Assembly (NCBI GenBank): GCA_021324885.1
Contig: JAJPIF010000011.1
Coordinates: forward strand, 62,001-126,000
Direction: 5' to 3'
Length of the DNA stretch: 64,000 nt
DNA from: Pseudomonadota bacterium
GTDB lineage: Bacteria; Desulfobacterota; Binatia; Binatales; Binataceae
This document shows positions 25,024 to 42,234 of this stretch, piece after piece. Every line of letters starts with the position of its first letter. The stretch's first letter is position 1. A program made the position numbers and the translations under genes. The notes beneath the pieces are model-generated. The model had not been told where the DNA came from and searched no databases. It saw only the letters and a list, made by a program, of their open reading frames with translations.

Positions 25024-26316
25024 ATGCCTTCACCCGGCGCAACTCCCTCAGGCCTCTCCGCGTTGGAAAAAATCTACGCGGCTTTATCGCCGTGCGTGTT
25101 TGGGCCGTCGCTGGCTGCGGCTTATGTCAGCGGTGCGACCGGTGACGAGTTGCGCGCGCGCATGGGAAGGGTACCGGTTACGGAGCGGGGCGCCCTGTGG
25201 TTTCATGGAGCCTCGGCGGGAGAGATGGCTGGCGCGGCGCGCCTGGTGACGGCCCTGCACGACCACGGTTATGATTTTCCTGCGATCTTTACTGCCTCCA
25301 ACCGCGCCGGCGTCGACTATATCGCCCGTTTACAGACCCGCAACACCGCCGCGGCGCTGGTTCCCTGGGATGTGTCTGCATGGATCGGCCGCGCCTTTGA
25401 CACCTGGCAGCCTGCGGCGCTGTTTTTGATCGAAACCGAATTGTGGCCGCTGCTGATCTACGAAGCGTGGCGGCGCGCGGTGCCGGTGCTGGCGTTAAGC
25501 GCGCGAATTTACCCGCGGGATGTAAAGCGTTATCAGGCGATAAGGCTTTTTATTGAGCCGACGCTGCGGCGGCTCAGCCGTATCCTGGCGCAAAATGAAA
25601 TCGAGCGGGAGCGCTTTGTCGCACTCGGCGCGCCGCCGCATCGTTGCGTCGCAGCGGGCAACCTGAAGCATCTGCACGAGCGCGTGCCGGGAGATCCGCT
25701 TTGGTTGCGCAGCGAAATCGGTGTTGGTCCGGGCGAGCCGGTAATCGTATTCGGCAGTGTGCATCGCCAGGAACTCGCCCTGATATTCCAGGCAATGGCT
25801 GAGGTGAAGGATAAGGCGGTGCGCTTTGTCGTCGCTCCAAGACATCTGTCGTCGGCGCCGGACGTGGTGCGGGGAGCGACCGCGGCTGGATTGCCGGTGG
25901 CTTTGCGCAGCAGGATGCAAGCTGGCGATAATTGGCGCGTTTTGGTACTAGACACAATCGGCGAACTCAGGGAATTTTATGGGGTGGCGGTAGTGTCGGT
26001 TATTGGTGGCGGGTTTGGGAAATTCGGCGGACATAATCCGCTGGAAGCACTTGAGGCCGGAGTGCCGGTGCTCCTCGGCGCCCATTTCGATCATTTCGAG
26101 CACGAAGCGCGATCGCTGGTTGCGGCGGCGCCACAGACGATGGTTGCCACGGCTGCACAGCTGGCGGCGGCGCTCAGGCAAATGCTTGCGGATGAGCAAT
26201 GGCGGCGCAACATACTAGCCAAACAACTGCAGACATTGCCGGACCCGGTCTGCGTTACCCGGCGTTATCTTGATGAACTCGCACCCTATCTCACGGCGGC
26301 CTATGCAGGAACCTGA
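25024..26316 (+). CDS. waaA: 3-deoxy-D-manno-octulosonic acid (Kdo) transferase
   Basis: WaaA adds Kdo to the lipid A precursor. The protein has 430 residues, as expected. The catalytic-base motif is GALWFHGASAGEMAGA (Glu in SAGE). The family sequence LFLIETELWPLLIYEAWRRAVPVLALSARI follows, then GSVHRQEL and SVIGGGFGKFGGHNPLEALEAGVPVLLG in the C-terminal CMP-Kdo-binding domain. The N-terminus is more polar than usual. It overlaps lpxB by 14 bases and opens a plus-strand run of lipid A genes. Number of Kdo residues added cannot be told. Confidence 0.96.
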   Translation: MPSPGATPSGLSALEKIYAALSPCVFGPSLAAAYVSGATGDELRARMGRVPVTERGALWFHGASAGEMAGAARLVTALHDHGYDFPAIFTASNRAGVDYIARLQTRNTAAALVPWDVSAWIGRAFDTWQPAALFLIETELWPLLIYEAWRRAVPVLALSARIYPRDVKRYQAIRLFIEPTLRRLSRILAQNEIERERFVALGAPPHRCVAAGNLKHLHERVPGDPLWLRSEIGVGPGEPVIVFGSVHRQELALIFQAMAEVKDKAVRFVVAPRHLSSAPDVVRGATAAGLPVALRSRMQAGDNWRVLVLDTIGELREFYGVAVVSVIGGGFGKFGGHNPLEALEAGVPVLLGAHFDHFEHEARSLVAAAPQTMVATAAQLAAALRQMLADEQWRRNILAKQLQTLPDPVCVTRRYLDELAPYLTAAYAGT

Positions 26317-27508
26317 CGGCAAACCGCTGACCATTTGCCTGGTGGCGGGCGATGTTTCCGGCGACCAGAACGGTGGGCGGTTGGCCAGCGCGCTGCTCGA
26401 GCTCAACCGCGATATTCGTCTGGTCGGTGCCGGGGGATCGGCGATGGAGCGCGCCGGGGTCGAAGTTGCAGTCAGCAGCACCGGGGTTTCGACCATCGGT
26501 CCGCCTGATTCGGTGCGGGCGGCGCGCTCGGTGCTGCGTGTGTGGCGCGATACGCGCTCGCTGCTCAGCAACGCGCGTCCCGACCTCGCAGTCCTGATCG
26601 ACGCCGAAACCATCAATGTGATGCTGGCGCGATGGCTGCGCGCTCACGGTATCCCGGTGGTGTTCTTTTTTCCGCCCCAGGTTTGGCTGTGGGGCCAATG
26701 GCGGCTGCCGCTGGTGGTGCCGCTGGCGACCCGGGTCTTGTCGGCTTTTCGCGAGGAAGCGGAAATCTACAAGGCGGCGGGTTCCGACACCTTGTGGGTG
26801 GGCCATCCGCTGCGCGACGCGGTGCGGGTGAACGAAGATCCCGCCGCCGCCCAGATGAAGATCGGGCTTGATCCGGCCCGTCCGATGGTTACCCTGATGC
26901 CGGGCAGCAGGATGCAGGAGATTCGCGATTTAAGCGGACCGATGCTGGGTGCGGCCAAACTGCTGCAGCAGCGCAATCCCGCGCTTCAGTTTTCCATCCC
27001 GCTGGCCAGCGAGGAACTGCGGACCGACCTCGCCCAGGCGGTGCGCCAGAGCGGTTTGCGCGATGCCGTGGTCTACAATCCCGATTCCTATGCCGTGCTC
27101 AGCCGCGCCAAGGTAGTGCTGCAATGTTCCGGAACCGCCACGGTCGAAGTGGGCCTGCTCGGTATCCCGTCGGTAATCGCCTACCGCTGCCGCCCGCTTT
27201 ATTACTCGGTCGGACGCCGTCTGATGAGGGTCAAGTACATCGGGATGGTTAACATCCTGCTCAACGACCTCGTGCAGCCCGAGTTTTTCCAAAAGCGCGT
27301 CGATCCCGTTCATCTGGCCGACGAGGTCTGGTCGCTGCTGACCAACGAGACCCGGCGTCGGCAGATCCAGATGCGGCTGGCGCAACTTCCCGAGGTCCTG
27401 GGGCCCACCGGGGCGATGAAACGCGCGGCGCAGGCCATCATGGAGTTGCTCCAACCGTGCGCCCGTCCCCAGACACGGCCGCTATCCGCAGGAATCGGAG
27501 CGCAGTAG
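26303..27508 (+). CDS. lpxB: lipid-A-disaccharide synthase
   Basis: LpxB joins UDP-diacylglucosamine and lipid X to the lipid A disaccharide. The N-terminal motif is LVAGDVSGDQNGGRLA, followed by GAGGSAMERAGVEV. The sequence PPQVWLWGQWRL is the usual PPQVWAW-type motif, and LPGSRMQEI plus CSGTATVEVGLLGIPSVIAYR complete the GT19 fold. I place the start at ATG 26303 (MQEPDG); an earlier in-frame start at 26270 extends the overlap with waaA. It is 401 residues long, with only 30 bases to the next gene. Confidence 0.96.
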   Translation: MQEPDGKPLTICLVAGDVSGDQNGGRLASALLELNRDIRLVGAGGSAMERAGVEVAVSSTGVSTIGPPDSVRAARSVLRVWRDTRSLLSNARPDLAVLIDAETINVMLARWLRAHGIPVVFFFPPQVWLWGQWRLPLVVPLATRVLSAFREEAEIYKAAGSDTLWVGHPLRDAVRVNEDPAAAQMKIGLDPARPMVTLMPGSRMQEIRDLSGPMLGAAKLLQQRNPALQFSIPLASEELRTDLAQAVRQSGLRDAVVYNPDSYAVLSRAKVVLQCSGTATVEVGLLGIPSVIAYRCRPLYYSVGRRLMRVKYIGMVNILLNDLVQPEFFQKRVDPVHLADEVWSLLTNETRRRQIQMRLAQLPEVLGPTGAMKRAAQAIMELLQPCARPQTRPLSAGIGAQ

Positions 27509-27538: not shown

Positions 27539-28312
27539 ATGGCCGAGACCAAAATTGACCCGGCATTGAAGGGGAAGGTCGCCCTGGTGACCGGAGCCTC
27601 GCGCGGGATTGGCCGGGCGATCGCGCTTAAGCTGGCGCGCGAGGGCTGCGACATCGCCGCCGTCTATTTCAATTCGCACGATCAGGCGCGCGCGGTTTGC
27701 GCCGCAATTGGCGCCCTGGGACGCCAGGCGGTGCCGATCGTCGCCAATGTTGCCAGCCCCGAAAGCGTCAGCGCACTGTTTGCGGAAATGTCACGGCATT
27801 TCACCCGTCTGGACATCGTGGTCAGCAACGCGGCCAGCGGCGTTTTGAAACCCAGCCTCGAGATGTCGCTTAAGCACTGGCGCTGGTGCATGGAAACCAA
27901 CGCCCTGGCGCTGAACCTCCTGGCTCAACGCGCCGCGCCGATCATGGGGCGTGACGGACGAATCATTGCGATTTCCAGTCTGGGCGCGCGTTTCGCCCTT
28001 CCCGACTACAGCTTTATTGGAGCTTCCAAAGCCGCATTGGAAGCGCTGGTGCGAAGCCTGGCGATGGAACTGGGACGCAGCCATGCAATCCGCGTCAACG
28101 CCGTAACGACCGCGGCTGTCGATACCGACGCGCTCAAGGCGTTTGCCGCCCGTGAACAAATGCTGCGCGATTTTGCTCAGCGTTGCGCCCTCGGACCGGC
28201 AATCACGCCCGAGCATGTAGCCGATGCGGTTTTCCTGCTATGCCTGCCTGAAGCGGCGATGATCACGGGCCAGACGCTGGTGGTCGACGGCGGATTTTCG
28301 ATCAGTGGGTGA
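27539..28312 (+). CDS. fabL: enoyl-ACP reductase of FabL type (SDR)
   Basis: A 257-residue SDR protein with the NAD(P) motif VTGASRGIGRAIA. The active site is Y157-x6-K164 (YSFIGASK), the spacing of FabI/FabL enoyl reductases, rather than the Y-x3-K of ketoreductases. Strong resemblance to Bacillus FabL is visible by eye in SNAASGVLKPSLEMSLKHW, ISSLGARF, SKAALEALVRSLAMEL and DTDALKAFAAREQ. FabL-type enzymes reduce trans-2-enoyl-ACP. It starts 30 bases after lpxB and ends directly before fabG, so it probably acts in the dedicated acyl-chain pathway of this run. Cofactor preference is unknown. Confidence 0.87.
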   Translation: MAETKIDPALKGKVALVTGASRGIGRAIALKLAREGCDIAAVYFNSHDQARAVCAAIGALGRQAVPIVANVASPESVSALFAEMSRHFTRLDIVVSNAASGVLKPSLEMSLKHWRWCMETNALALNLLAQRAAPIMGRDGRIIAISSLGARFALPDYSFIGASKAALEALVRSLAMELGRSHAIRVNAVTTAAVDTDALKAFAAREQMLRDFAQRCALGPAITPEHVADAVFLLCLPEAAMITGQTLVVDGGFSISG

Positions 28313-28321
28313 GTGGCGCGC

Positions 28322-29080
28322 ATGCTCGGCGATTCCGGCTTGGCCGGCAAAACAGTCATCGTAACGGGGGGCAGCCGCGGCATCGGCCGGGCAATCGTCC
28401 AATCATTCGCCGCCGAAGGCGCCGCCGTGACCTTTTTCTTCCAATCCGATCATGCCGGCGCGCAACAGACGCTGGAACACGCGCGCGCCCGCGGCGGATC
28501 CGTGTTTGCCGAACAGGCCGACGTACGCGACGCGGCTGCCGCAAGCGCGGCGGTGCGCCGTGTAATCCAGCACCATAGCCGCATTGACGTGCTGGTCAAC
28601 AACAGCGCCGTCATCCGCGATAACCTTTTGCCGTGGCTGGAAGACGCCGATATCAGCGACGTGCTGCAAACCAACGTGACCGGAGTGTTCAATGTGACCC
28701 GCGCCGCCGTTCCACAGATGATAAGCCAGCGCGCGGGGAAAATCATAAATATCAGTTCAGTCGCGGGTGCGATGGCGGGGCGCGGGCAGAGCAATTACGC
28801 CGCCAGCAAAGGGGCCGTCAACGCATTTACCCGGGCGCTGGCGGTGGAATTGGCGCCGCGCAAAATCACCGTCAACGCCGTCGCCCCCGGCCTTATCGAA
28901 ACCGCGATGTCCCAGCGCATCCGCGCCAACGCCGGCGACGAGGCGCTCAAGCGAATCCTGCTGCGCCGCTATGGACAACCCGACGAAGTTGCCCACGCGG
29001 TGGTGTTCCTTGCCTCGCGCTTTGCTGATTATATTACCGGTCAGATCATATACGTGGATGGCGGTTTTAAAATGGAGTGA
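28322..29080 (+). CDS. fabG: 3-oxoacyl-ACP reductase
   Basis: A 252-residue classical SDR ketoreductase. Features are VIVTGGSRGIGRAIV, VLVNNSAVIRDNLLP, SSVAGAMAGRGQSNYAASKGAV with the Y-x3-K pair, and the C-terminal ITGQIIYVDGGF. These are the FabG hallmarks. Start ATG 28322 is chosen; a GTG at 28313 directly after the fabL stop is an alternative. It is two bases from the ACP gene start (stop TGA 29078-29080, ATG 29083). Its place next to a FabL-type enoyl reductase, an ACP and two KS genes indicates a dedicated fatty-acid or polyketide line. Confidence 0.92.
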   Translation: MLGDSGLAGKTVIVTGGSRGIGRAIVQSFAAEGAAVTFFFQSDHAGAQQTLEHARARGGSVFAEQADVRDAAAASAAVRRVIQHHSRIDVLVNNSAVIRDNLLPWLEDADISDVLQTNVTGVFNVTRAAVPQMISQRAGKIINISSVAGAMAGRGQSNYAASKGAVNAFTRALAVELAPRKITVNAVAPGLIETAMSQRIRANAGDEALKRILLRRYGQPDEVAHAVVFLASRFADYITGQIIYVDGGFKME

Positions 29081-29082
29081 CC

Positions 29083-29499
29083 ATGCCGGTTGCAATCAGC
29101 CAAGAGGATATCGAATCGGTGTTCCCCCAGGTGGCCAGAATTGTCGCCGAAGCGCTGGCCCGGGACCCCTCCGAAATTCGTCCAACCAGCCGTCTGTTCG
29201 CCGATCTCGAAGCCGAGTCGATCGACCTGCTCGATATTGTGTTCCGGCTGGAGCGCGAATTCGACATTCAGATCCCGCGCGGCCGCATCATCGAGGACGC
29301 GCGCGGCGACCTGCCCGAGGCGGAGTTTGAGCACAACGGAGTGCTTACCGCCGCGGGGCTGGAACGCCTGCGCCAGTATATGACCGAGGTCCCCCCTGAA
29401 AACTTCCGCCCGCAAATGAACCTGGCGGACGTCCCGAGCCTGTTCACGGTGGAAACGATGTGCAAGATGGTGCTCCGCGCCAAGCGTGCCGGCGCCTGA
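29083..29499 (+). CDS. acyl carrier protein with a C-terminal extension
   Basis: A 138-residue carrier protein, longer than the usual 75-80. The phosphopantetheine attachment site is Ser46 in DLEAESIDLLD (canonical DLGADSLD). The four-helix ACP pattern continues through FRLEREFDIQIPRGRI. About 50 extra residues follow (ARGDLPEAEFEHNGVLTAAG, RLRQYMTEVPPENFRPQM). GGAG lies just before ATG 29083. It lies two bases behind fabG and two ahead of the KS gene. It resembles the dedicated ACPs of lipid A very-long-chain or aryl-polyene systems in being separate from acpP. The extension may be for partner recognition. Confidence 0.9.
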   Translation: MPVAISQEDIESVFPQVARIVAEALARDPSEIRPTSRLFADLEAESIDLLDIVFRLEREFDIQIPRGRIIEDARGDLPEAEFEHNGVLTAAGLERLRQYMTEVPPENFRPQMNLADVPSLFTVETMCKMVLRAKRAGA

Positions 29500-29501
29500 T
29501 C

Positions 29502-30800
29502 ATGCCTTCGCGCCGGCGCGTGGCGATAACCGGATTGGGTTTGGTCACGCCGCTGGGCAACAGCGTCGAGGAAACCTGGCGCGCGTTGCTCGAGGGCCGC
29601 AGCGCAATTGCGCCGATCAGCGGGTTCGATCCCAGCGGTTTCCCGGTCCGCATCGCGGCTGAAGTCAAAAATTTTTCCTACGCGCCCCCGCCGCCATATC
29701 GCAAATTGCTCAAGTACGCGGCGCGCCATGTCCGCTTCGCGCTGGCCGCCGCTACCCAGGCGATCGAGGACTGCGGCCAAAGCCCGCGGCCCGATAACGC
29801 CACGCGTTGGGGCTGTGTCGCCGGCAGCGGCATGATGGCGAACAATTTCGACGACCTGGTCCGATTCCAGCGCTGTTTTGCGGCAAACGGGCGGCTCGCC
29901 ACCCGTTTGCTGTTCGACCCGGCGGCAGGGATGCCCGATCCGATTGCCTATGCGCGCAATCAGCCCAACGCCGGTGTGGCCCTGATGGCCCAACGGTTCG
30001 GAATTCGCGGCTACACCGGCGCGGTACACACCGCGTGTGCTTCCGGCGGTCAAGCAATCGGTAGGGGCCTGCGTCTGATTCGGCGCGGCAGCGCCGACAT
30101 GGTACTGGCTGGCGGCTTTGATTCGATGGTTAATCCGATCGGCCTGGCGGCATTCAGCTTGCTGGGCGCACTCTCGGACTGCAACGACACGCCCTCGCGC
30201 GCCAGCCGTCCCTTCGATCGCACTCGCAATGGTTTCGTGCTGGGCGAGGGCGCCGGGTTCATGGTGCTGGAGGAATGGGAGTCGGCGCGCCAGCGCGGCG
30301 CCCGCATTTACGCGGAACTGGCCGGCGACGGCAATTCGCTCAGCAGCTACCGCATCACCGATTCCCATCCTTCAGGCGACGGCCCGATCCAGGCTATGCG
30401 TGAGGCGCTCAGGGACGCGAATGCGCAACCCGATGAAGTCGGCTACATCAACGCTCACGGCACCTCGACGATCATGAACGACCGCAGCGAATGCGCGGCC
30501 GTCAACGCCGTCTTCGGCCTCCATGCGCGGCGCGTCCAGGTCAGCTCGACCAAAAGCCTGATGGGGCACCTGATCGCAGGCGCCGGCGCGGTCGAGGCCG
30601 TGATTTGCGCGCTCGCCATTCATCATTCAACCCTCCCCTTCAGCGCCAACCTTGAACATCCAGACCCCCAATGCGACCTGAACTTCGTGCGCGACCGTCC
30701 AGTGCAATGCCGCCTGGGGCTGGCGATGTCGAATTCGTTCGGCTTTGGCGGTTCCAACAATAGCCTGGTGTTCAGGAATCCCGAGGACGTCAGGCAATGA
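29502..30800 (+). CDS. fabF: beta-ketoacyl-ACP synthase, FabF type (active KS)
   Basis: A 432-residue KAS II protein. The nucleophile is Cys179 in VHTACASGG, and the two histidines are in NAHGTSTIMND and TKSLMGHLIAGAGAVEA. N-terminal RRRVAITGLGLVTPLGNSVEETW and C-terminal NSFGFGGSNNSLVF are typical. The ATG at 29502 lies two bases after the ACP stop. It overlaps the next KS-like gene by four bases (ATGA), so the two products are probably made in equal amounts. The active site is complete, in contrast to the partner. Confidence 0.95.
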   Translation: MPSRRRVAITGLGLVTPLGNSVEETWRALLEGRSAIAPISGFDPSGFPVRIAAEVKNFSYAPPPPYRKLLKYAARHVRFALAAATQAIEDCGQSPRPDNATRWGCVAGSGMMANNFDDLVRFQRCFAANGRLATRLLFDPAAGMPDPIAYARNQPNAGVALMAQRFGIRGYTGAVHTACASGGQAIGRGLRLIRRGSADMVLAGGFDSMVNPIGLAAFSLLGALSDCNDTPSRASRPFDRTRNGFVLGEGAGFMVLEEWESARQRGARIYAELAGDGNSLSSYRITDSHPSGDGPIQAMREALRDANAQPDEVGYINAHGTSTIMNDRSECAAVNAVFGLHARRVQVSSTKSLMGHLIAGAGAVEAVICALAIHHSTLPFSANLEHPDPQCDLNFVRDRPVQCRLGLAMSNSFGFGGSNNSLVFRNPEDVRQ

Positions 30801-32092
30801 ATGAGCCGATCGTAATTACCGCGACCGAAGCGATTTGCGCCTCGGGCACATCGGTGGCGCAAATCCATCGGGAATTGCTCGCGGGACATACCGCTTTCAC
30901 ACCGCTCAGCCAATGGGATTCCTCCGCCTGGCCGGTGCCATTGGCGGGCGGCGTCCCAAATATCGATGGCGCCGGACTGTTTGACGATCGCAGGCTGCTT
31001 AAATCGATCCAACGCCTGCGGCGCACCGACCTGCTCGGCTTGTACGCCGCCGCCCGCGCCGTAGCCAATTCAGGCATTCCGGCGTGCAGCGCCGCTTTAG
31101 ACGAGTCCGCGCGCATTCAATTCAACGAGCGCACGGCGGTGTACACCGGCTGCGGCGGGGTCGGCTATTACTACCAGTATGATTTTTTACCCGCCTTAGC
31201 GGCGGCGGACGGCGATTTGCGGCGCTTTGCCGACAAGCTGGGCGCCACCGTCAATCCCACCTGGCTGCTTCAGTCGCTGCCCAACAACGTGTTGTGTTAC
31301 CTCGGAATCGCCTTCGGCTTCAAGGGCGCCAACACCTGTATCACCAACCATGGAACGGGCGGAGCCCAGGCGATCGTCGAGGCATATTACGCGTTGCGCG
31401 CCGGCGAGGCCGATCGCGCGCTGGCCGCCGGGCATGATTGCCCAATCGAACCCGAGATCATATTGAACCTCTACCGTCTGGGACTGTTGACCACGGACGC
31501 GATTCGACCCTTTGATGCGGCCAGCAGCGGACTGATCGTGGGAGAAGGCGCGGCGGCGATGGTGCTGGAGACGCGATCGGCGGCGGCGGCGCGAGGAGCG
31601 CGCGTGCGCGGAGAAGTTCTGGGCGCCGGCTTCAGCACCGAAGCGGCGGGCGTCTTGTCCACCGGCGCGAGCGGCGATGGGATGGCGGCAGCAATCGAAC
31701 TGGCGTTGGGCGAGGCGGGGGTCGCGCCCGCAGAAATTGCCTTGATTGTCGCGCATGGTAATGGTACGGCGGCATCTGACCGCTCCGAGGCCGCTGCCAT
31801 CCGCCGCGTATTTGGCCGCGATATGCCCGTGGTTACATCGTTCAAATGGGCGTTCGGCGATACCATTGCGGCCGCCGGTGCAATCGATGCGGCGCTCGCG
31901 CTTGAGTGCCTGCACGCCGAAACCGTCCCGGGCATCGCCACGCTACGCCAACCCGATCCGGGATGCGCGGAGCTCAACCTATCGGCGTCGCCAACCCGAT
32001 TGCGCGGCAACCTCGCGCTGGTTTTGAGCCGGGGGTTCGGAGTCATGAACTGTGCCCTAGTGATCAAGGCGCCTCGCGATGGGCATTCATGA
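30797..32092 (+). CDS. KS-like protein lacking the catalytic Cys and one His (chain-length-factor-like)
   Basis: A 431-residue ketosynthase-fold protein. Aligned without gaps to the neighbouring KS, the nucleophile position is Gly186 (NHGTGG instead of TACASG) and the second His is Asp (FKWAFGDTIAAAGAIDA instead of MGHLIAGAG). The first active-site His remains (VAHGNGTAASD). The N-terminus is MNEPIVITATEAICASGTSVAQ. Cys-less KS proteins are known as KS-beta/chain length factors in type II polyketide and aryl polyene systems, where a Gln often replaces Cys. A heterodimer with the upstream KS is likely, since the genes overlap by 4 bases at the start and 4 at the end. Confidence 0.9.
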   Translation: MNEPIVITATEAICASGTSVAQIHRELLAGHTAFTPLSQWDSSAWPVPLAGGVPNIDGAGLFDDRRLLKSIQRLRRTDLLGLYAAARAVANSGIPACSAALDESARIQFNERTAVYTGCGGVGYYYQYDFLPALAAADGDLRRFADKLGATVNPTWLLQSLPNNVLCYLGIAFGFKGANTCITNHGTGGAQAIVEAYYALRAGEADRALAAGHDCPIEPEIILNLYRLGLLTTDAIRPFDAASSGLIVGEGAAAMVLETRSAAAARGARVRGEVLGAGFSTEAAGVLSTGASGDGMAAAIELALGEAGVAPAEIALIVAHGNGTAASDRSEAAAIRRVFGRDMPVVTSFKWAFGDTIAAAGAIDAALALECLHAETVPGIATLRQPDPGCAELNLSASPTRLRGNLALVLSRGFGVMNCALVIKAPRDGHS

Positions 32093-33291
32093 AAACCCCT
32101 GATTCCGACAGTGGATTGCGCCACAGCATCGACCTGGTCGATATCGGGCGCATCCGCCGGCTGCTGGCCGAGATGCCCAGAAACGATTTGCTGCGGATTT
32201 TCTCCGAGCGCGAACTGGCCGACGCGGCCGACGGTCCCGAACCTGCACGCCTTGCCGCCCGCTTCGCCGCCAAGGAGGCATGTCTGAAGCTGTTTCCCCG
32301 CGAGACCGCGCTGGGCGAACTGGAGGCGCGCGATTTCGAAATCGTTTCCGATCCCTACGGAGCGCCGCGCGTGAACCGTTCGCCGCGCGCGGCGGATGCG
32401 ATGGCGCGTCATTGGATAGCGGACATTTCCCTTGCGCTCAGCCATGATTCGACTCACGCCACGGCGATGGCCGTGGCGCGGACGCTGCAACTGAGCGCGC
32501 CGGCATCAGGCCGCTTCATGTATCATTGCCTGCCGATTCGCCGCCGCGTGGTGATTTCCAACCTCAAACGCGCCTTTGGCAGCGAACTCGATGAGCGGCA
32601 GATAATTACGCTGGCACAGGCCTTTTACGGCCATCTGTTCCGCTCTGTCGTCGAGTTCGCGCGCATCAACCTGGGCATCGGAGCGCGCCCTGTTGTGCAA
32701 GTCCGCAATCTTGAGGCGATCCTTAAAGCCTACCACATGAACAAGGGCGTGCTGCTCCTGTCCGGCCATTTCGGCAATTGGGAAGTCGCGCTGCCCGCCG
32801 CGATGGAAAACTTTCCCGAATACCGCGGACGCTTTTATATCCTGCGCCGTCCCATACCCCGATGGCTCGAGATGATCGTCGATCGGCGGATGCGCAAAAG
32901 CGGACTTAAGGCGCTGCCCAAGCGCGGCTCGATGCAGACTATTCTCGATCGGCTCGCGGCGCGCGACGCGGTGGTCTTCATTATGGATCAGCATGCAGGC
33001 GGGCGCGACGGCGTGCTGGTCGATTTTTTTGGCTCGCCGGCGTGGACCTTTCGCAGCCTGGCGCTGATCGCATTGCGCAGCGGCGCGCCGGTGGTGCCCG
33101 CCGCCTTGTGGCGCGAAGCCGACGGCTCGCACGTGGTGCGTTTCGAAGAAGCCCTGCCGACGCTGCCAGGACGCAGCGCGGCGGATGCGATTGCGGCCAA
33201 CACGCGTCTATACAACGCAGCGCTGGAGCGCATCATTATGCGCCACCCGGAGCAATGGCTGTGGATGCATCGGCGATGGAAACCGCGTTGA
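32089..33291 (+). CDS. fusion of holo-ACP synthase (AcpS) with LpxL/HtrB-type acyltransferase
   Basis: A single 400-residue frame carries two enzymes. Residues 10-135 are AcpS-like: SIDLVDIGRI with Asp15, FSERELADA, then LAARFAAKEACLKLF with the catalytic AKEA (Glu63), and ISLALSHDSTHATAMAVA. Residues 145-400 are a lipid A secondary acyltransferase of the LpxL/HtrB family: RRRVVISNLKRAFG, the catalytic H-x4-E in SGHFGNWE (H227, E232), MDQHAGGRDGVLVDFFG and HPEQWLWMHRRWK. The usual N-terminal membrane helix of LpxL is missing. The start ATG 32089 overlaps the KS-like stop. The fusion would load and discharge the same ACP. Confidence 0.88.
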   Translation: MKTPDSDSGLRHSIDLVDIGRIRRLLAEMPRNDLLRIFSERELADAADGPEPARLAARFAAKEACLKLFPRETALGELEARDFEIVSDPYGAPRVNRSPRAADAMARHWIADISLALSHDSTHATAMAVARTLQLSAPASGRFMYHCLPIRRRVVISNLKRAFGSELDERQIITLAQAFYGHLFRSVVEFARINLGIGARPVVQVRNLEAILKAYHMNKGVLLLSGHFGNWEVALPAAMENFPEYRGRFYILRRPIPRWLEMIVDRRMRKSGLKALPKRGSMQTILDRLAARDAVVFIMDQHAGGRDGVLVDFFGSPAWTFRSLALIALRSGAPVVPAALWREADGSHVVRFEEALPTLPGRSAADAIAANTRLYNAALERIIMRHPEQWLWMHRRWKPR

Positions 33292-33382: not shown

Positions 33383-34423
33383 TTGACGCGACCATCGAAT
33401 CCCGACCGCATCCTGGTGCACGGAGTCAATTGGCTGGGCGATTTGGTCATGACGATGCCGGCGCTGGCGGCCTTGCGGCGGCATTTCCCCCAGGCGCATC
33501 TTGCAGTACTCGTCGATCATAAGCTGACTTCGTTTTTCGACGGTGTCTCATGGGTCAATGAAGTAATCCCGCTGCGGCGCGACCCCGATAAATTCCAGCT
33601 TTCTGAACTGATGCGGACCGCGTCCGAGTTACGCGCGCGCCGATTCGAGCTGGCGGTGATCTTCGCCAACAGTTTTGTCTCAGCATTGCGGATAAGGCTG
33701 GCACGCGTCCCTGTTCGCGCCGGATTCTCCAGCGACGGCCGTGGATTGCTACTGACTAATCGAGTCAAACCGGATCCGGCTTTGATGAATCAGCATCAGG
33801 TCTATTACTGGCCGGCGATGCTGAAAGCGACGTTGAACATCGAAACCGATCTCAATCAATTCGCGATTCCAGTTGCCCCCCGCCATCTCGATGAGATGGG
33901 CCGATGGCTTTCCGCCCGCCGCAATGCGCATTCAAAGCTGGTTGCGATCGCTCCGGCCGCCGCCTACGGACCGGCCAAGGAATGGCCGCAGGAGCATTAC
34001 GCGGAACTGGTATCGGCATTGGCCAGGCGGGGCGTGCAATCCGTGCTGGTCGGAGGCGCCGGTGACGCGGCCCAATGCGAGAGGATCGCGTCGGCATCGG
34101 ATTGCCGCGCGATCGTTGCGGCCGGCCAGACCAATGTCGGCCAGTTGATGGCGCTGCTGTCGTTGTGCGACGGCTTTGCCGGCAACGATTCCGGCGCCGC
34201 GCACGTGGCGTCGGCGTTGAATGTTCCCACGGTGGTAATTTTCGGTTCGACCAATCCCTTGCGCACGGGGCCGCTGGGCGCGCGCACCGCAATCCTCTAC
34301 AAAGCGATCCAGTGCAGCCCCTGCCTGGCCCGCACCTGCCGCTTCGGCCATTACCGCTGTCTGCGCGAAATCAGCCCCGCCGAAGTCATGACCGCGTTGG
34401 CCAATCTCGGCGCAATCGCCTGA
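33383..34423 (+). CDS. waaF: ADP-heptose--LPS heptosyltransferase II
   Basis: A 346-residue GT9 protein that adds heptose to the LPS inner core. The N-terminal motif is RILVHGVNWLGDLVMTMPAL. The C-terminal part has GNDSGAAHVASALNVPTVVIFGSTNP and the cysteine cluster CSPCLARTCRFGHYRCLREISP, typical for WaaF. TTG 33383 is the start: GGAG lies 8 bases upstream, an in-frame TAA is at 33365, and no ATG is near. It closes the lipid A/core run started by waaA. Confidence 0.95.
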   Translation: MTRPSNPDRILVHGVNWLGDLVMTMPALAALRRHFPQAHLAVLVDHKLTSFFDGVSWVNEVIPLRRDPDKFQLSELMRTASELRARRFELAVIFANSFVSALRIRLARVPVRAGFSSDGRGLLLTNRVKPDPALMNQHQVYYWPAMLKATLNIETDLNQFAIPVAPRHLDEMGRWLSARRNAHSKLVAIAPAAAYGPAKEWPQEHYAELVSALARRGVQSVLVGGAGDAAQCERIASASDCRAIVAAGQTNVGQLMALLSLCDGFAGNDSGAAHVASALNVPTVVIFGSTNPLRTGPLGARTAILYKAIQCSPCLARTCRFGHYRCLREISPAEVMTALANLGAIA

Positions 34424-34706
34424 CGATAAAGTTCGAGCTACCGCATCTCAGGAGCGAGCCACAAATGCCCGCGAATTGACCGAGGTCTGCGCGAGGACGC
34501 GCGCCAATACCGCCGTTCTCGGCGGTGTGCGAATACGTCGAGGCGTGAGTTCGCACCACTCGATCAGTCTGGAAAAATCCAAGTCTGGAAAAATTAGGGC
34601 AGAGATTAAGACAGAGCTCAGCGGGCGCAGGCTCCTGTCCGGTTTTCCTCTCCTGAAGGGAGAGGGGCAGGGGGTGAGGTCTTGAAAATCACACGCAATC
34701 AGCCCG
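34424..34706. other. non-coding stretch after waaF
   Basis: No supported gene. The end (34646-34681) contains TCCTCTCCTGAAGGGAGAGG and GGGGGTGAGG, a C/T-then-G-rich inverted motif that often precedes DUF559-type genes in many genomes, here just before such a remnant. Confidence 0.4.
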
Positions 34707-34925
34707 GTGAGCACAGAGAAGCTGGCGCTTGCCCGAAAGCTTGGCCGCGAAATGACGCCTGGCGAGCGGATTCTATGGCCGCGCTTCGCCGCAACCGGCT
34801 TCGCGGCCTGCACTTCCAAAGACAGCAGGTGATTGCCAGGTACGTTGTGGATTTTTACTGCGCCCGCGCCCGGCTCGCCGTTGAACTGGACGGAGACTCC
34901 CGCGCCGGTCATCGTGAGTCTGTCC
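34707..34925 (+). pseudogene. decayed DUF559 (restriction-endonuclease-like) gene
   Basis: From GTG 34707 one frame reads STEKLALARKLGREMTPGERILW. After about 34780 the matching part continues in another frame as RRNRLRGLHFQRQQVIARYV, then VDFYCARARLAVELDGDS. Together they follow the DUF559 pattern of small endonuclease-fold proteins, so there is at least one frameshift. The C-terminal half, after the VELDG motif, is absent. The remnant ends just before the 3' end of the J-protein gene on the other strand. Confidence 0.7.
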
Positions 34926-34962
34926 CATCGCCTTTGCCGCAACATCGGCCACGAGCAGGATT

Positions 34963-35649
34963 TCACACAACGCGCAGATGCAGCCGAAGATATTTGCCCA
35001 TCACTCCCAAATGCGGTAACGGCATCTCCATACGCGCGTACGACGAGCTCAGCGGCGGTATGTTTACATGAATTCGTTCTTCATCCAGTTGAATTGACTC
35101 TCCGTCGCATGCGCCGCACGGCAGGCCTTCGGTGCGCCCCGAGCCACGGCATTCAGCGCACGGGTACCACGCGGGAAGCGCAAGAATCGCGACGCCGCCG
35201 CGTGCAGCATCGGCGGCTGGGAGTGTGGCGGTAAGATCCAACGGATCCCATTCGCCCTCGTTGGTCCGCTCGGCGCATTGCAGCCTTTCATGCATGCGCC
35301 CAGCCAGCGAATCCAATACGACCAGTGAAAGCACCCTGAGTTCAATCGTGGGAATGATCCGCAACGCAGCGAAGTTTTCATGAGGAACATCGTTACCCAA
35401 CGATATCACTGGCTCTGGGGTGACTTGGCGTGAAACTGAGTCGTCGATCCCCCTGTCGTATTGCTTGCGCCATTCTTCTCTTTCCAACAGCCGATAAGCA
35501 CTGACTATTTGCTGAAAGGCCGCGATGGCGCGGGGGCCCGCTCGGTCGGGATGATAGCGCTTGACGAGCCGCCGGAAGGTCCGGCGCAAGCCATCATGGC
35601 TTTCCGTCTGCGTCACCCCGAGGATTGCATATTGCGTTCTTGCCAGCAT
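34963..35649 (-). CDS. J-domain protein with a half DnaJ zinc finger
   Basis: A 228-residue DnaJ-like co-chaperone. The J domain (about 3-70) has the HPD motif at 33-35 (KRYHPDRAGP). A linker with a helix follows. Only two of the four CxxCxGxG elements of DnaJ are present (CAECRGSGRTEGLPCGACDG), so the zinc site would be single. The C-terminus HVNIPPLSSSYARMEMPLPHLGVMGKYLRL resembles a short client-binding strand domain. It is the last gene of the Hsp20 run, 39 bases after the third Hsp20 gene, and would recruit DnaK for clients held by the small heat shock proteins. Confidence 0.85.
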   Translation of the reverse strand: MLARTQYAILGVTQTESHDGLRRTFRRLVKRYHPDRAGPRAIAAFQQIVSAYRLLEREEWRKQYDRGIDDSVSRQVTPEPVISLGNDVPHENFAALRIIPTIELRVLSLVVLDSLAGRMHERLQCAERTNEGEWDPLDLTATLPAADAARGGVAILALPAWYPCAECRGSGRTEGLPCGACDGESIQLDEERIHVNIPPLSSSYARMEMPLPHLGVMGKYLRLHLRVV

Positions 35650-35688
35650 GATGCGCGACCTCCTGACGCACGGGAGAAACGACGCGTC

Positions 35689-36276
35689 TTAGCGCACCTT
35701 GATTTCTATTCGCCGCGTCCGCGCATTTGCGCTTTTTGGCATGGAGACTTTTAACAGGCCGTTTTTGTAGGTCGCTTTGACATGCTCCGTATCGACCTCG
35801 CATGGCAATGGCACCACCCGGAAGAAAGAGCCAAAACTGCGCTCCGCGTAATAGTATCCTGAACGCCGTTCTTCAGCGCTTTGTTGCTTCTCACCGCGCA
35901 GGATTAGACGGTCACCGCTAACCTCCACAGCGAAATCATTCTTGTCGAGCCCGGGCATTTCAGCGGTGACCACAATCTCATGGTCGCTCTCCTGTATATC
36001 CAGCGCCGGCCCCCCTGTCTCGAAAAAAGAAGGAAACCACAGATCGCCATCGCCTTCGCTTAAACGGGAGCCAACGCGCCGCGGGATCAGTCGGTCCACC
36101 GCACGTTGCAGGTTGGTTCGCAAATCGACCAACTTCTCTTTAAGCGGCGCAGGCAGTCTTTCGCTGTGTTCACGGTCCTCCTTCGCGCGGCTGCGCGACC
36201 ATCTGGCAAATGCGCTATCGATATCTTCGCGCAGCCGTCGCAAAGGCTCTTTCCACGTTTCCGGTAAAAGCTGGGC
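35689..36276 (-). CDS. Hsp20/alpha-crystallin protein with long N-terminal arm
   Basis: A 195-residue small heat shock protein. The alpha-crystallin domain occupies about residues 95-195 (LDIQESDHEIVVTAEMPGLDKNDFAVEV, RLILRGEKQ, YYYAERSFGSFFRVVPLP, KATYKNGLLKVSMPK). The N-terminal 80 residues are charged and helical (LRRLREDIDSAFARW, KEKLVDLRTNLQRAVDRL), longer than in most bacterial members. The start at 36276 has GGAGGAGAATTGAC before it; an upstream in-frame start at 36372 lacks this. Third of three Hsp20 genes on this strand. Confidence 0.93.
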   Translation of the reverse strand, partial: AQLLPETWKEPLRRLREDIDSAFARWSRSRAKEDREHSERLPAPLKEKLVDLRTNLQRAVDRLIPRRVGSRLSEGDGDLWFPSFFETGGPALDIQESDHEIVVTAEMPGLDKNDFAVEVSGDRLILRGEKQQSAEERRSGYYYAERSFGSFFRVVPLPCEVDTEHVKATYKNGLLKVSMPKSANARTRRIEIKVR

Positions 36277-36368
36277 CATGTCAATTCTCCTCCGTTTAAC
36301 GCGGGCAAGGAGCGGATGCTCACGCGGCGATGCTCGAATCGATCGCGCCGCCGCGCTCGCGCCGGAAT

Positions 36369-36770
36369 TCAACTCACGCGTACCTCGATCTGCTTTGGCT
36401 TGGCTTTTTCGGTTTTCGGCAAGCGCAAGGTCAGCACGCCGTGTTTCAATTCCGCGCTGATCTTCTCCCGGTCAATCTCCTCGTTGAGCTCGAACTGGCG
36501 GTAAAAATTCGCGAGCTCATATTCACGGTAGATTGTGTCGCCCGCCGCCACGTGGCTCGCCTTGCCGCTTATGGTTAACAGGTCGTTGTCAATATGCACC
36601 TGCAGATTCTCCTTGGCCACGCCGGGAAGATCGGCCATCAATACCAGGCCCTCGGGAGTTTCATAGATGTCCACCGGAGGACGCAGATTGCGCTCTCTAG
36701 CGCGGGTGATTTCGCGTTCGCCTTTTCCACGTTCGGGTCCCCTTGGAACCGGCACAGTTTTTTCAGCCAT
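36369..36770 (-). CDS. Hsp20/alpha-crystallin protein
   Basis: A 133-residue small heat shock protein, a holding chaperone that binds unfolding proteins without ATP. The alpha-crystallin domain has PPVDIYETPEGLVLMADLPGV, NLQVHIDNDLLTISGK, the FYRQFELNEEID segment and the end HGVLTLRLPKTEKAKPKQIEV. The N-terminal arm is short and charged (RGKGEREITRARERN). It is second of three tandem Hsp20 genes, 45 bases after the first. The three differ mainly in the N-terminal arm, which usually sets oligomer size and client choice. Confidence 0.94.
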   Translation of the reverse strand: MAEKTVPVPRGPERGKGEREITRARERNLRPPVDIYETPEGLVLMADLPGVAKENLQVHIDNDLLTISGKASHVAAGDTIYREYELANFYRQFELNEEIDREKISAELKHGVLTLRLPKTEKAKPKQIEVRVS

Positions 36771-36815
36771 GGCGATTGCCTCCTGCTTTTGACTTGAACG
36801 TAATTTGCCCGAGCC

Positions 36816-37274
36816 TCAGGCAACCTGCACGCTGATTTGCTTGGGCTTTGCCTTCTCGGCCTTCGGTAGCGTGATCAGCAACAAGCCGTTCTTAAACTCA
36901 GCCTTTACATTCTGATCGTCTATTTCGACCGGCAGGGTGATGCTGCGAACAAATTTTCCGGCCGCGCGCTCCTCCCGGTGAAATGATTCCGCTTTCACGT
37001 CAGACGGCGGCCCCTTCTTTTCGCCAGAGATTGTAAGAGAATTGTGAACCACCGTTAGCTTTAGAGAATTCGGATCGATGCCAGGCGCCATCGCTTCGAC
37101 GTACAGATGGTCCCGGTCTTCATGGACGTTGACCAGCGGATAGCCGCGTGCCAGACGTCCTGGAAGGAACGCCGCCCGGAAAGCCGGCTCGGTCTGAAAG
37201 CCGAACTCTTCGAAAGCCCGATCTACTTCCCGGCGCAACTCATCGATCTCCCGCCACGGATCCCATGTCGCCAT
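36816..37274 (-). CDS. Hsp20/alpha-crystallin protein
   Basis: A 152-residue small heat shock protein. The N-terminus ATWDPWREIDELRREVDRAFEEFG is the common Hsp20 class type. The crystallin domain contains VNVHEDRDHLYVEAMAPGIDP, SLTISGEKK, FHREERAAGKFVRSITLPVEID and FKNGLLLITLPKAEKAKPKQI. AAAGGAGGGTTGAAA precedes ATG 37274. It is the first of three consecutive Hsp20 genes, which end in a J-protein. No CIRCE or clear sigma32 site could be recognised in the 240 bases upstream. Confidence 0.95.
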   Translation of the reverse strand: MATWDPWREIDELRREVDRAFEEFGFQTEPAFRAAFLPGRLARGYPLVNVHEDRDHLYVEAMAPGIDPNSLKLTVVHNSLTISGEKKGPPSDVKAESFHREERAAGKFVRSITLPVEIDDQNVKAEFKNGLLLITLPKAEKAKPKQISVQVA

Positions 37275-37512
37275 TTTCAACCCTCCTTTTAGGATTTGAA
37301 GTGCGGAGCGCCAAACCGAGCAGACAAACCGTCGGGCTGGCCGCTCGCGCGGCGCGGTTTTCGGCCCGCCTGCCGTCAGGCGTGGCGGAACATTGCGCTT
37401 AAGCGCGCCGTCCCTTTGCACACCCTCCGAGCCGCCGGCTAATCGCGATACCGGCGGGCGGCCTTCCCAGACGGTTCAGATCGCCGCCTACCCTCGTGGA
37501 ACCCGCTTGCGC

Positions 37513-37731
37513 CTAGCTGACGCCGAGGGCTCCAGCCGCAGCGAGCGCTGAGATTGGATGGAGCCACTTAGCTCGATCCAACCTCATTCTTTGACCGGGC
37601 ACAGCGGCTGTGGAAGAACTGCCCAGTGCGGAACGAAGTCCTGGCAGGAACAGCCAGATCCAGCGGCAGAACTCCATCCACGAGGTGGCTAACCATGCGA
37701 GCCATACTCTTACGATCGCCAGCATAGCCAT
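37513..37731 (-). CDS. possible small membrane protein
   Basis: A 72-codon frame preceded by a very strong ribosome binding site (GGAAGGAGGTG directly before ATG 37731). The predicted N-terminal half is a tryptophan-rich hydrophobic helix (MLAIVRVWLAWLATS, CRWIWLFLPGL). The C-terminal half is basic and ends in AALGVS-type residues. No family is known to me. It lies 238 bases before the first Hsp20 gene on the same strand, so it could be co-transcribed. The strong Shine-Dalgarno is the main evidence; a chance frame cannot be excluded. Confidence 0.45.
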   Translation of the reverse strand: MAMLAIVRVWLAWLATSWMEFCRWIWLFLPGLRSALGSSSTAAVPGQRMRLDRAKWLHPISALAAAGALGVS

Positions 37732-37991
37732 CACCTCCTTCCAAGGTCGTTCTTCCACTGAAAAAACTAAGCCGTCTCTCATCGATGTCAAGGAAGGAAT
37801 GCGCTTGCAGGAAATCCCGTCGCTTTTGGATAAGGTGTGGCGAACTTCTCCGCCCTCTTCAAAACCGCGGGGATACCAGCTCGGGCGAAAGCTGAGCAAG
37901 ACCTGACGTGATAAATTCCACCGCAACCGCCGTCAGGAGCACTCCCAACAACCGCGCCACCACGTTGAGGCCTCGAAAACATATTGCTGAC

Positions 37992-38187
37992 GTGACGACT
38001 GATCTTAATTTGACGGGGCCCGTCCTGGAGCACTGGGCGGCATTATGCCGAGATCGTTGTAGCGCTATTCGTAATCGCAGGCCCGATCGGCGCCGTTCCG
38101 ATATTCGTGACTCTTACGCAGCATCACGCGCCGTCCGACCGCGCCAGGATGCAACATGCGGTGGGCGGTGCCGGATTGAGTTCAGAC
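37992..38187 (+). pseudogene. 5' remnant of a MarC-family membrane protein gene
   Basis: From GTG 37992 the frame reads VTTDLNLTGPVLEHWAAL, the usual MarC start. After one shift at about 38043 it continues as YAEIVVALFVIAGPIGAVPIF, then VTLTQHHAPSDRARM, the typical first helix and NPIG-like motif of MarC. The gene stops at the 3' end of the opposite-strand secreted protein gene, so most of the helices are lost. Confidence 0.72.
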
Positions 38188-38205
38188 CGGCACCGCCGTC
38201 AAGTC

Positions 38206-39060
38206 TTACATTTTCATGCCCTTCATCGAGCCGAAGAAAAGATAGAAATTGGATGGAACATCGCCCAACGCGCCACCCTCTTTCTGAGCTTCCCTGAGCT
38301 TCTGGAGCGAAGTTATGCCGCTGCTGCCGTCAGCCGCCGGCCAGTCCGAAGGATCGGTCACTAAAACGGTGATGACCTGCCACCACTGTGGCTGCTTTTG
38401 ATTAATGTTCTGCGAGATGACGTGATCGTGGTTAGGTGTCGGCACGAAAATGTTTTGCTTGGGCGTGGCCGGAATCTTTCCCAGCGCAACCAAGGCGGGA
38501 AACAGATCCAAGGTCGATGCGTGCATCGTGCAGGTGCCGGGCGGTGAACCAGGATCTGGACACTGTACTGCCACCGACGGCGTCTCCTTGAATCCCTCGG
38601 GTACGATACCGAAGAGTTTGATTAGGGTGTCGCCCAGCTCCTTGCCGCAAAGCAGTCCCGGACGAGGGTTGGGAGGACAGGAAATCGCGTCGGTATCAGT
38701 GGTGTCAGTGCCAAAAAACGGCACCAGTACCCAGAGCTTAACCGTCGTATTGGCGTTGGCGCCGGTCGGATCGTGTTGCGGCTCGGTACCAACTTGACAA
38801 ATGGGGGTCTGAAACTCGGCTGGGTCTGATTGCGCTGGTATGCCGTTGAAATTCAAATCGTCGGTTGGTTCATCCACACAATCAAAGTTTTCTGTATAGC
38901 TAAACACCAACGACTGGTTTTGGCCGAAAGCAGCGGTTTGATTCGGCGCCAGGGTGTCCGAGGACGTATTCGGACCGCCCTCCTGTGCGATTGCGATTCC
39001 GACAGAAAGAGCAAGCGCAAGACCGGCGCCGACCATAAGTCGAAGTATCCAACCCTTCAT
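38206..39060 (-). CDS. secreted cysteine-containing hypothetical protein
   Basis: A 284-residue exported protein of no family known to me. The signal peptide is MKGWILRLMVGAGLALALSVGIAIA with a cut after AQ. The mature chain is rich in Thr, Pro and Asp. It has six or more cysteines (NFDCVDE, TPICQV, ISCPPNPRPGLLCG, VQCPDPGSPPGTC), likely to form disulfides, and a HASTLDLFPALVALG stretch near the middle. GAGGAGGCAAAACGCTT precedes the ATG. It is downstream of the diiron-protein/anti-sigma/sigma run but separated by 110 bases. Confidence 0.72.
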   Translation of the reverse strand: MKGWILRLMVGAGLALALSVGIAIAQEGGPNTSSDTLAPNQTAAFGQNQSLVFSYTENFDCVDEPTDDLNFNGIPAQSDPAEFQTPICQVGTEPQHDPTGANANTTVKLWVLVPFFGTDTTDTDAISCPPNPRPGLLCGKELGDTLIKLFGIVPEGFKETPSVAVQCPDPGSPPGTCTMHASTLDLFPALVALGKIPATPKQNIFVPTPNHDHVISQNINQKQPQWWQVITVLVTDPSDWPAADGSSGITSLQKLREAQKEGGALGDVPSNFYLFFGSMKGMKM

Positions 39061-39169
39061 AAGCGTTTTGCCTCCTCAACAATGCGCGAAGATTGAAAGT
39101 CCGACCAAAGATACGCGTGGCTGACCGGATTGGATTGGAAAATCGACGTTGGCCAGCCGGCTGGAAAAG

Positions 39170-40985: not shown

Positions 40986-40996
40986 ACGACTCGTAA

Positions 40997-41557: not shown

Positions 41558-42234
41558 TTCCTTTTCTCAAGATACGTGATGCTGGAGCGTTCAGATTTCG
41601 CGCACGGCGCAAGCAGCCAACTCGATACTCTTCCTCTTATATCCCCGGGGTGCAACGTGGCCACAACGCTACACAACGCAACGAGGTGCTGGTTCGCTGT
41701 TGATAGGAATTCATCTCGATGTCCTGCCGCGCCGCGCCCGTCTCATGGCGTCTTCAGCCGCCTTGCGACCGCGGCGTCGAATTGCTCGAAATGCGTGGTA
41801 TTCCAAGTGTAGATCGCCAAGATGCTGCTCGTCGCGTTCGCGCCCGACCCGATCCACGGTCTCCCCAATGCGACCGAGTTTATCGAGGTAATTTTGCCAG
41901 CATCTTAGCACCAGATATTAGGATTATTACAAATCGCGGACCAGACCGTCTTTTACCTTAGCGCTTCATCCCGACATCTGCTCCAATGCCTCGCGCCCGG
42001 TCCGCTCGACCTATTCGAGCAAGCGCTTGCGGCTGCCCTTTTTGCTGAGATCGGGGCCGTTGAGCAACTCCTCCCTGATCTGCTCCAGCGCGTCGACACG
42101 GCGTGGGCCAGGCATGGTGCCGGGAACGGCTGACGCCGGAGTTGGCGCTCGTCAATGCGTTCGGAATTATTCCCGCTTGCCGGGGCGCTGGAGGGGCGGT
42201 GGCATAAGCCGGCCTGACAACGTAACCTCCCGGT
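41558..42234. other. gene-poor stretch upstream of the sigma gene
   Basis: About 680 bases without a well-supported gene. It should hold the promoter of the sigma/anti-sigma/diiron run and that of the Kdo hydroxylase gene, but I cannot place either. A minus-strand PIN-domain remnant is annotated separately. A 34-codon frame at 42013-42117 (minus; RVDALEQIREELLNGPDL) is too short to call. Confidence 0.4.
41744..41850 (-). pseudogene. C-terminal remnant of a PIN-domain (VapC-like) toxin
   Basis: The minus strand reads SSILAIYTWNTTHFEQFDAAV, then ARRLKTP and a stop. This resembles the last strand of PIN toxins, where a T-x-N-x-x-H-F motif precedes the end of the protein. The preceding acidic residues of the catalytic core are not found and no antitoxin is seen. 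Low-confidence call on a short match. Confidence 0.35.

Follow-up and report, generated by a model that had tools for sequence, protein, structure and literature searches.

The window examined here, the whole 64,000-nucleotide stretch spanning positions 62,001 to 126,000 of contig JAJPIF010000011.1 (assembly GCA_021324885.1, Binataceae), carries at 27539-33291 six genes that seem, on sequence, to form a compact acyl-chain assembly cassette of a few uncultured soil Binatota. They encode an enoyl reductase, a ketoreductase, an acyl carrier protein (ACP), a ketosynthase (KS), a KS-like partner (KS-beta) and a fusion of a phosphopantetheinyl transferase (PPTase) with an LpxL-family acyltransferase (AcpS::LpxL). 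Very probably the set is a dedicated acyl-chain line that works now or did so until recently. To the whole chain of events, in which such a line would use a private ACP and end on a second lipid A, we give a rough probability of 0.55. The identity of the genes, their catalytic residues and order, and the second LpxB and WaaA beside them are firm as far as comparison of sequences goes. A preliminary description of the window had named the six open reading frames (ORFs), their families and their gaps, all of which were borne out by ORF and profile checks, and had proposed a dedicated line, which the conserved catalytic residues and gene order support. The six ORFs, spaced by 30, 9, 2, 2, -4 and -4 bases with ATG starts, are as follows.

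27539-28312, + strand: FabL-type enoyl-ACP reductase (NF005975, 321 bits; PDB 3OIC; Tyr-x6-Lys)
28322-29080 (GTG at 28313 possible), + strand: FabG 3-ketoacyl-ACP reductase (NF009466, 241.5 bits, cut-off 222)
29083-29499 (GTG at 29077 possible), + strand: dedicated ACP with C-terminal extension (PF00550, 38 bits)
29502-30800, + strand: KS, Cys-His-His intact (NF005589, 422.5 bits, cut-off 387)
30797-32092, + strand: KS-beta, 431 residues, Gly in the Cys column and Asp for the second His (PF00109/PF02801)
32089-33291, + strand: AcpS::LpxL fusion, AcpS at about residues 12-132 and acyltransferase at about 140-398 (PF01648 and PF03279 in one frame)

The genomes with which the window was compared are mostly metagenome-assembled; G000 is the window's own, G001 and G002 belong to the same genus, G010, G020 and G029 are further Binatia, and L numbers denote loci. 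The six-gene order recurs in G001 and G002, and in G020 with a seventh gene, a dehydratase. G029, cut at contig ends, shows the last four genes only, and L077, a contig binned as Burkholderiales that may be mis-binned, has seven, with FabL cut at the contig start. Because the order recurs (G001, G002, G020, G029 and L077), the cassette is not a matter of chance, and chance or mis-called ORFs are ruled out. A search for the gene order in relatives, suggested with the preliminary description, thus finds it conserved in five Binataceae loci (in part in G029) and in L077. Between species of the window's genus the six frames are open and 65-79% identical. Among 57 Binatia genomes, full-length matches to the fusion at 49% identity or more were found in five (G000, G001, G002, G020 and G029), and matches to the KS-beta at 49% or more in the same five. 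In G010 the fusion match covers the LpxL part only (54%), and a fusion-like match in G051 (query 18-398, one TGA inside) was rejected as only a separate LpxL ORF (L038). We also scanned GTDB r220, one genome per species, by KS-beta alignment and two peptide patterns, a design that divergent cassettes may escape and that may omit the window's own genome. This gave 77 loci, five of which (L075, L076, L077, L078 and L079) are 48-65% identical over nearly full length, the other 72 being at most 41% and mostly near 30% identical; this pattern-based scan returned no further cassettes beyond the Binataceae set and L077. Among 395 genomes sampled from the phylum and searched at E <= 1e-60, the matches were the window's own genome together with G235 and G320, which have a different cluster.

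The individual proteins fit this assignment. The enoyl reductase scores 321.3 bits against the NCBIfam FabL family (NF005975; cut-off 328, runner-up family 177.5), its top PDB sequence match is FabL (3OIC, 194 bits; next 147), and it has the Tyr-x6-Lys spacing (YSFIGASK) that is the catalytic rule for FabL-type enoyl reductases. The second gene is a FabG with YxxxK, for which the top match, TIGR01830, scores 260 bits, below its cut-off of 298; the KS is FabF-type with HTACASGG (top match TIGR03150, 438 bits, below its cut-off of 494). Alignment of the six loci shows the Cys, both His and the Lys of the KS kept throughout. In the KS-beta, whose gene overlaps that of the KS, the Cys column never holds Cys (Ser in four, Thr in one and Gly in one, the window); all six loci retain the first His and the Lys, and five the second His, which is Asp in the window. 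Like the second subunit of a KS-chain-length factor (KS-CLF) pair, the KS-beta is therefore a protein of KS fold without the nucleophilic Cys.

The ACP is 140 residues long when read from GTG, with a carrier domain of about 75 residues followed by a C-terminal part that shows good conservation across the five cassette ACPs. Its carrier-serine motif, ESID, is invariant, and the extension present, in all six sequences aligned (the five plus the distant L099). The predicted model has seven helices and a mean predicted local distance difference test score (pLDDT) of 81.3. Compared with the PDB, no structure reaches an E value of 0.001, and among the 50 listed the best query-normalised TM-scores, 0.49 at a root-mean-square deviation of about 5, are those of 8f5i (rank 2) and 3lmo (rank 11), both annotated under specialized acyl carrier protein. 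The model thus hints weakly at an extended ACP of the AcpXL kind. Against the AcpXL family NF005079 it scores 42.5 bits, under the cut-off of 83, which was passed in four of the five genomes searched (AcpXL of L186, L187, L188 and L189, 153-181), L077's genome lying below it at 47.4.

In the fusion, PF01648 covers residues 14-111 (40.3 bits, cut-off 25) and PF03279 residues 140-398 (126 bits, cut-off 22.3). Asp15, Glu63, His227 and Glu232 are invariant in the six aligned sequences, the first two being presumably the metal ligands of AcpS, and the HX4E motif of the LpxL half is canonical (HFGNWE in five fusions, HFGSWE in L077). One half of the predicted model (pLDDT 74.0, predicted TM-score 0.56) matches structures of PatA and LpxM, and the other half AcpS. 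Elsewhere G000 encodes one stand-alone AcpS and two further LpxL homologues; the housekeeping roles are therefore covered.

That the set lacks only a dehydratase, as the preliminary description had it, is true of the window's genus and not of the cassette at large. In G020 a gene between those for ACP and KS has two FabA-like stretches (double-hotdog; PF07977, 50.7 bits); relatives of it stand before the KS at the contig edge in G029 (72% identical) and between ACP and KS in L077 (37.5%). Since these three loci have the gene, the full cassette is FabL, FabG, ACP, dehydratase, KS, KS-beta and AcpS::LpxL, and the window's genus is without the dehydratase gene. A copy elsewhere in that genus was considered and rejected, as a search of G000, G001 and G002 found no dehydratase of the G020 type anywhere in the three genomes. 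Across the 57 Binatia genomes some match was found in 16, strong only in G020 and G029; those in G045, G051 and G053 (36-40%) have no cassette adjoining. The FabZ-like gene that had been suggested to lie elsewhere does exist: the single FabA-like domain in the whole of G000 is a FabZ adjoining LpxA.

The second body of evidence concerns what surrounds the cassette. WaaA, LpxB, the six cassette genes and a glycosyltransferase family 9 (GT9) gene form one run on the + strand of the window, with two further lipid A-related genes beyond it.

25024-26316, + strand: WaaA-2, 3-deoxy-D-manno-oct-2-ulosonic acid (Kdo) transferase, second copy (PF04413, 145.9 bits)
26303-27508, + strand: LpxB-2, lipid A disaccharide synthase, second copy (PF02684, 244 bits)
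33383-34423, + strand: WaaF-like heptosyltransferase (GT9; PF01075, 156 bits)
42235-43155, + strand: KdoO-like Kdo hydroxylase (PF11004, 287 bits)
43426-45741, + strand: MsbA-2, ABC lipid flippase-like, with N-terminal extension (PF00664, PF00005)

The window's WaaA and LpxB are additional copies that lie at a distance from the canonical pair, found in G000 on contig C27 in the run BamA, Skp, FabZ, LpxA, a Gfo/Idh gene, LpxB, MsbA, WaaA and LpxK. A second LpxB is present in six of the 57 Binatia genomes (G000, G001, G002, G010, G020 and G029; 52-79% identical to LpxB-2, whole or in pieces), with the G029 copy in pieces, the two matches of G056 read as pieces of one gene and three genomes giving no match; the six include all five Binataceae genomes that carry the cassette. 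For WaaA, five genomes (G000, G001, G002, G010 and G020) give two strong matches, 50 give one and two give none, a third match in G001 being weak (26.7 bits). LpxC is single in 55 genomes, was not found in two and is duplicated in none. In an LpxB tree of 26 rows LpxB-2 is a deep clade of its own (100/100), separated from LpxB-1 by a stem 2.5 changes per column long, on which ground a recent duplication within the genus was rejected; the Burkholderiales row is a long branch. From these sequences the locus looks like a second, non-canonical late lipid A line. The preliminary description had the cassette embedded in a lipid A/core run, which stands as to the kind of locus and has to be amended in that this line is not the cell's only one.

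The surrounding order is conserved more on one side of the cassette than on the other. In all four Binataceae loci that reach far enough (G000, G001, G002 and, with one intervening gene, G020) the cassette follows LpxB-2, and waaF comes after it in two of the four (G000 and G002). A constant place between lpxB and waaF, for which the preliminary description had proposed to look, thus holds in these loci for lpxB and fails for waaF, and fails also at L077, which has no lipid A neighbour. In G002 the cassette is followed by WaaF, KdoO and MsbA-2, with 51 bases between WaaF and KdoO; in G010 and G020 the LpxB-2 locus continues to DUF374, LptF, LptG, KdoO and MsbA. MsbA-2 is syntenic with the cassette or the LpxB-2 locus in G002, G010, G020 and G029, and in the window 8 kb separate WaaF from KdoO and MsbA-2. 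G023 (L199) has a second LptF, LptG, KdoO and MsbA with one LpxB, LpxB-2 not being found in it, and this set is perhaps the remnant of a second line.

These observations suggest the following mechanism. The AcpS half of the fusion would charge the cassette ACP with phosphopantetheine, on which the KS, presumably paired with the Cys-less KS-beta as chain-length partner or malonyl decarboxylase, would carry out condensation. FabG would then reduce the product and a dehydratase remove water, the cassette's own enzyme serving in G020, G029 and L077 and most likely the single housekeeping FabZ, in trans, in the window's genus. The FabL-type reductase would saturate the chain, giving a saturated product of unusual length or starter. 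Finally, the LpxL half would take this chain off the cassette ACP and esterify it onto a glycolipid, putatively that of a second lipid A line made up of WaaA-2, LpxB-2, KdoO and MsbA-2 and sharing LpxC with the canonical line.

Several observations weigh against this scheme. The window's cassette is itself without a dehydratase gene. A second WaaA was not found in G029 in the search of the 57 genomes, and in G010, which has no cassette, an LpxL lacking AcpS occupies the corresponding position in the LpxB-2 line. Conversely, L077 carries the cassette, fusion included, without any adjoining lipid A gene, in a genome (completeness not stated) with one LpxB; the acceptor therefore need not be a second lipid A. 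In the LpxL tree L077 stands beside the window's genus (99/92), unlike its place in the KS tree, where it falls outside the Binataceae rows (KS 96, KS-beta 91), so that the histories of the genes differ. That LpxL tree unites the fusions with the G010 LpxL (100/99); the fusions by themselves form one group in 30% of bootstrap trees, so that the G010 copy may lie inside or outside them, and the last gene of the cassette may accordingly have a history of its own. On these sequences, either the cassette has moved between distant bacteria or L077 is mis-binned. Extra copies of LptF and LptG were considered as a mark of the second line and rejected, since they also occur in Binatia that have one LpxB: four in G023 and four or five in eight genomes from other families. 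The window's genus has three. LpxL-like enzymes can, moreover, use other acceptors, as VexE does in acylating UDP-GlcNAc (PMC9597891).

The strongest competitor, unlikely on balance and yet the one to be taken most seriously, accordingly keeps the acyl line and changes its acceptor: the substrate of the fusion would be not lipid A but, for example, a UDP-sugar, a capsule anchor or a different glycolipid, and adjacency to LpxB-2 would reflect a pre-existing LpxL gene or chance. L077 speaks for it, as does the precedent of VexE, an LpxM-like enzyme with a fused N-terminal domain. The linker of the six fusions has a Kyte-Doolittle maximum of 0.25-1.1, with no strongly hydrophobic stretch where LpxL enzymes begin; the N-terminal part of stand-alone LpxL has 0.76-1.95 in eight of ten loci (two were not recognised by the pattern), a range that overlaps that of the fusions and makes the contrast a weak one. 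Set against this, the fusion run adjoins LpxB-2 in each of the four Binataceae loci that extend so far, the top structural matches include LpxM besides PatA, and the HX4E motif is canonical.

Less probable is a reducing type II polyketide cluster akin to those of secondary metabolism, which would yield a pigment or polyene that is either set free or attached, with LpxL as the off-loading enzyme. The case for it comes from the KS tree, a quick analysis of 66 rows with Shimodaira-Hasegawa-like approximate likelihood ratio (SH-aLRT) support only, including 43 hand-chosen rows of 109 further KSs collected and leaving out L188 as truncated. In it the six cassette KSs form one clade (100) and the six KS-betas another (100; deeper placement tentative, 82), and KSs of the f83 family, Actinomadura (L099) and G035 fall together with the cassette KS (SH-aLRT 97). 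The f83 and Actinomadura clusters also have a long ACP and FabG, and f83 a double-hotdog dehydratase (L178). However, a FabL-type enoyl reductase is present at five of the six cassette loci (the sixth, G029, being cut off upstream), a point in favour of saturation; the cassette contains neither a thioesterase nor a ligase nor an exporter, and the Binataceae loci otherwise hold lipid A genes. Least probable of all is decay in the window's genus, so that the chain is no longer made: the missing dehydratase in three of three genomes and the loss of the KS-beta second His, in the window only, would fit it, but the six frames are open and well conserved between species, the catalytic residues of KS, AcpS and LpxL are kept, and G000 has FabZ.

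Some further observations touch these subjects. Both f83 genomes (L178 and L179) have a long ACP, KSs and a KS-like protein in which Tyr occupies the Cys column, without an LpxL match; FabG and the double-hotdog dehydratase are in L178, and a stand-alone AcpS in L179. In Actinomadura L099 (5460-10266) a long ACP of the cassette kind and FabG accompany a KS that shares 43% identity with the cassette KS and a KS-like protein whose Cys column holds Ala. The planctomycete loci L086, L104 and L108 have KS-like proteins with Glu for the active-site Cys and no cassette seen adjoining. MsbA-2 has about 190 extra residues before its transmembrane region, and alignments to the copies of G002, G010 and G020 span most of this extension, which by eye contains a stretch that we take to resemble a ParB/sulfiredoxin-type motif and to which Pfam gave no match. 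The Gfo/Idh oxidoreductase gene of the canonical locus (L168, 3878-4843) stands between LpxA and LpxB-1 and might, we presume, have a GnnA-like role in a diamino sugar lipid A. Between WaaF and KdoO (34448-42234) the window has a DnaJ-like and three Hsp20-like genes, recognised by eye, and an anti-sigma-K-like gene. A gene at 4594-6000 encodes the selenocysteine synthase SelA (PF03841, 518 bits), and the organism may therefore make selenoproteins. Neither a tRNA nor an Rfam family reaching its gathering score was found in the window.

Should our interpretation be correct, the paired second LpxB and WaaA would let the coexistence of two lipid A lines in a single uncultured bacterium be tested directly, and the AcpS::LpxL fusion would suggest a way to keep an acyl pool private, in which the off-loading enzyme switches on its own carrier. 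A fuller picture, which we advance only tentatively and think somewhat doubtful, has two lipid A lines diverging after a shared LpxC, the second with its own acyl supply and an acyltransferase that activates the only carrier it draws from; two lipopolysaccharide (LPS) populations would then share the outer membrane, one built on a long saturated chain and arrived at independently of the rhizobial very-long-chain fatty acid (VLCFA) system. An open-access literature search surfaced no AcpS-LpxL fusion of this kind, only the VexE paper, and, among the papers listed, none whose title concerns two lipid A pathways. A term search of the main text of the Binatota genome paper (PMC8262859) found no lipopolysaccharide, lipid A, LPS, polyketide or aryl polyene.

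Each of the known systems resembles one part of the arrangement. In fungal type I fatty acid synthase, as in the fusion (by the structural match of its AcpS half), a PPTase is joined to the machinery that uses its carrier; there it sits in the megasynthase, whereas here it sits on the off-loading acyltransferase. Legionella pneumophila, compared by description only, has an lpxB paralogue in one cell, and we know of no acyl-chain cassette with its paralogous lipid A genes. VexE, a soluble, acyl-ACP-dependent enzyme of the Vi antigen anchor, shares with the fusion an LpxM-like fold and a fused N-terminal domain, but that domain is a tetratricopeptide repeat rather than AcpS, and the HX4D/E motif is degenerate in VexE and intact in the fusion (PMC9597891). 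The aryl polyene systems (ApeO-ApeC) and KS-CLF type II polyketide synthases likewise pair a KS with a CLF-like partner and have their own ACP and ketoreductase; aryl polyene clusters carry acyltransferase and PPTase genes as well. In contrast to the aryl polyene CLF, which is about half size (PMC8358021), the KS-beta is full size, and the cassette has an enoyl reductase. The kinship with aryl polyenes to which the preliminary description had pointed was not found, the cassette KSs not grouping with mixed KS-cluster KSs in a tree that held no named aryl polyene reference.

The closest parallel is the rhizobial VLCFA system, which places an omega-1 hydroxylated very long chain on lipid A. Its likeness in logic, with a differing gene set, had been anticipated in the preliminary description and is upheld here. 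The acpXL-fabZXL-fabF2XL-fabF1XL-adhA2XL-lpxXL system supplies the VLCFA of lipid A in A. fabrum, its products are 26-34 carbon chains said to span the outer membrane, and the cluster has five ORFs in some genera and six or seven in others (PMC11901934). At L187 the order is acpXL, fabZXL, fabF2XL, fabF1XL, a FabG-like gene, a zinc-type dehydrogenase and lpxXL; L189 has acpXL, fabZXL, fabF2XL, fabF1XL and lpxXL by matches, and L188 is cut off in fabF2XL. At L186 (3764-5250, on a contig titled Rhizobiaceae) acpXL lies 32 bases before fabF2XL, the set being otherwise that of L187 without the FabG-like gene, and fabZXL gave no match in the 15 kb around the cluster. L186, which shows no dehydratase gene between acpXL and fabF2XL, thus offers a precedent for a line that lacks a dehydratase of its own. 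Both systems hold in one run a private, C-terminally extended ACP, a KS and a Cys-less KS-like protein, a reductase and an LpxL-family transferase, with a dehydratase gene (on the cassette side in G020, G029 and L077). FabF2XL has Glu in the Cys column in three of three rows and lacks the first His, in an alignment uncertain there for such divergent rows. The differences are equally clear. FabF1XL and FabF2XL form separate clades in the KS tree (each 100, three rhizobial rows each), the three LpxXL rows a clade of their own in the LpxL tree (100/100), both apart from the cassette's proteins; on these clades and the AcpXL score direct kinship was rejected. The KS precedes the KS-beta in the cassette, short-chain dehydrogenase/reductase-type enzymes (FabL and FabG) take the place of the zinc-type dehydrogenase, the PPTase is fused to the transferase, and a second LpxB and WaaA stand at the Binataceae locus. 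As judged from sequence comparisons, then, the two systems share logic, including members without a dehydratase gene, and not descent of the pieces tested, and the cassette seems to work like the rhizobial long-chain system without being related to it by descent. If so, dedicated acyl lines for lipid A would have had at least two origins, each drawing on a different ketosynthase stock and each with a Cys-less KS partner.

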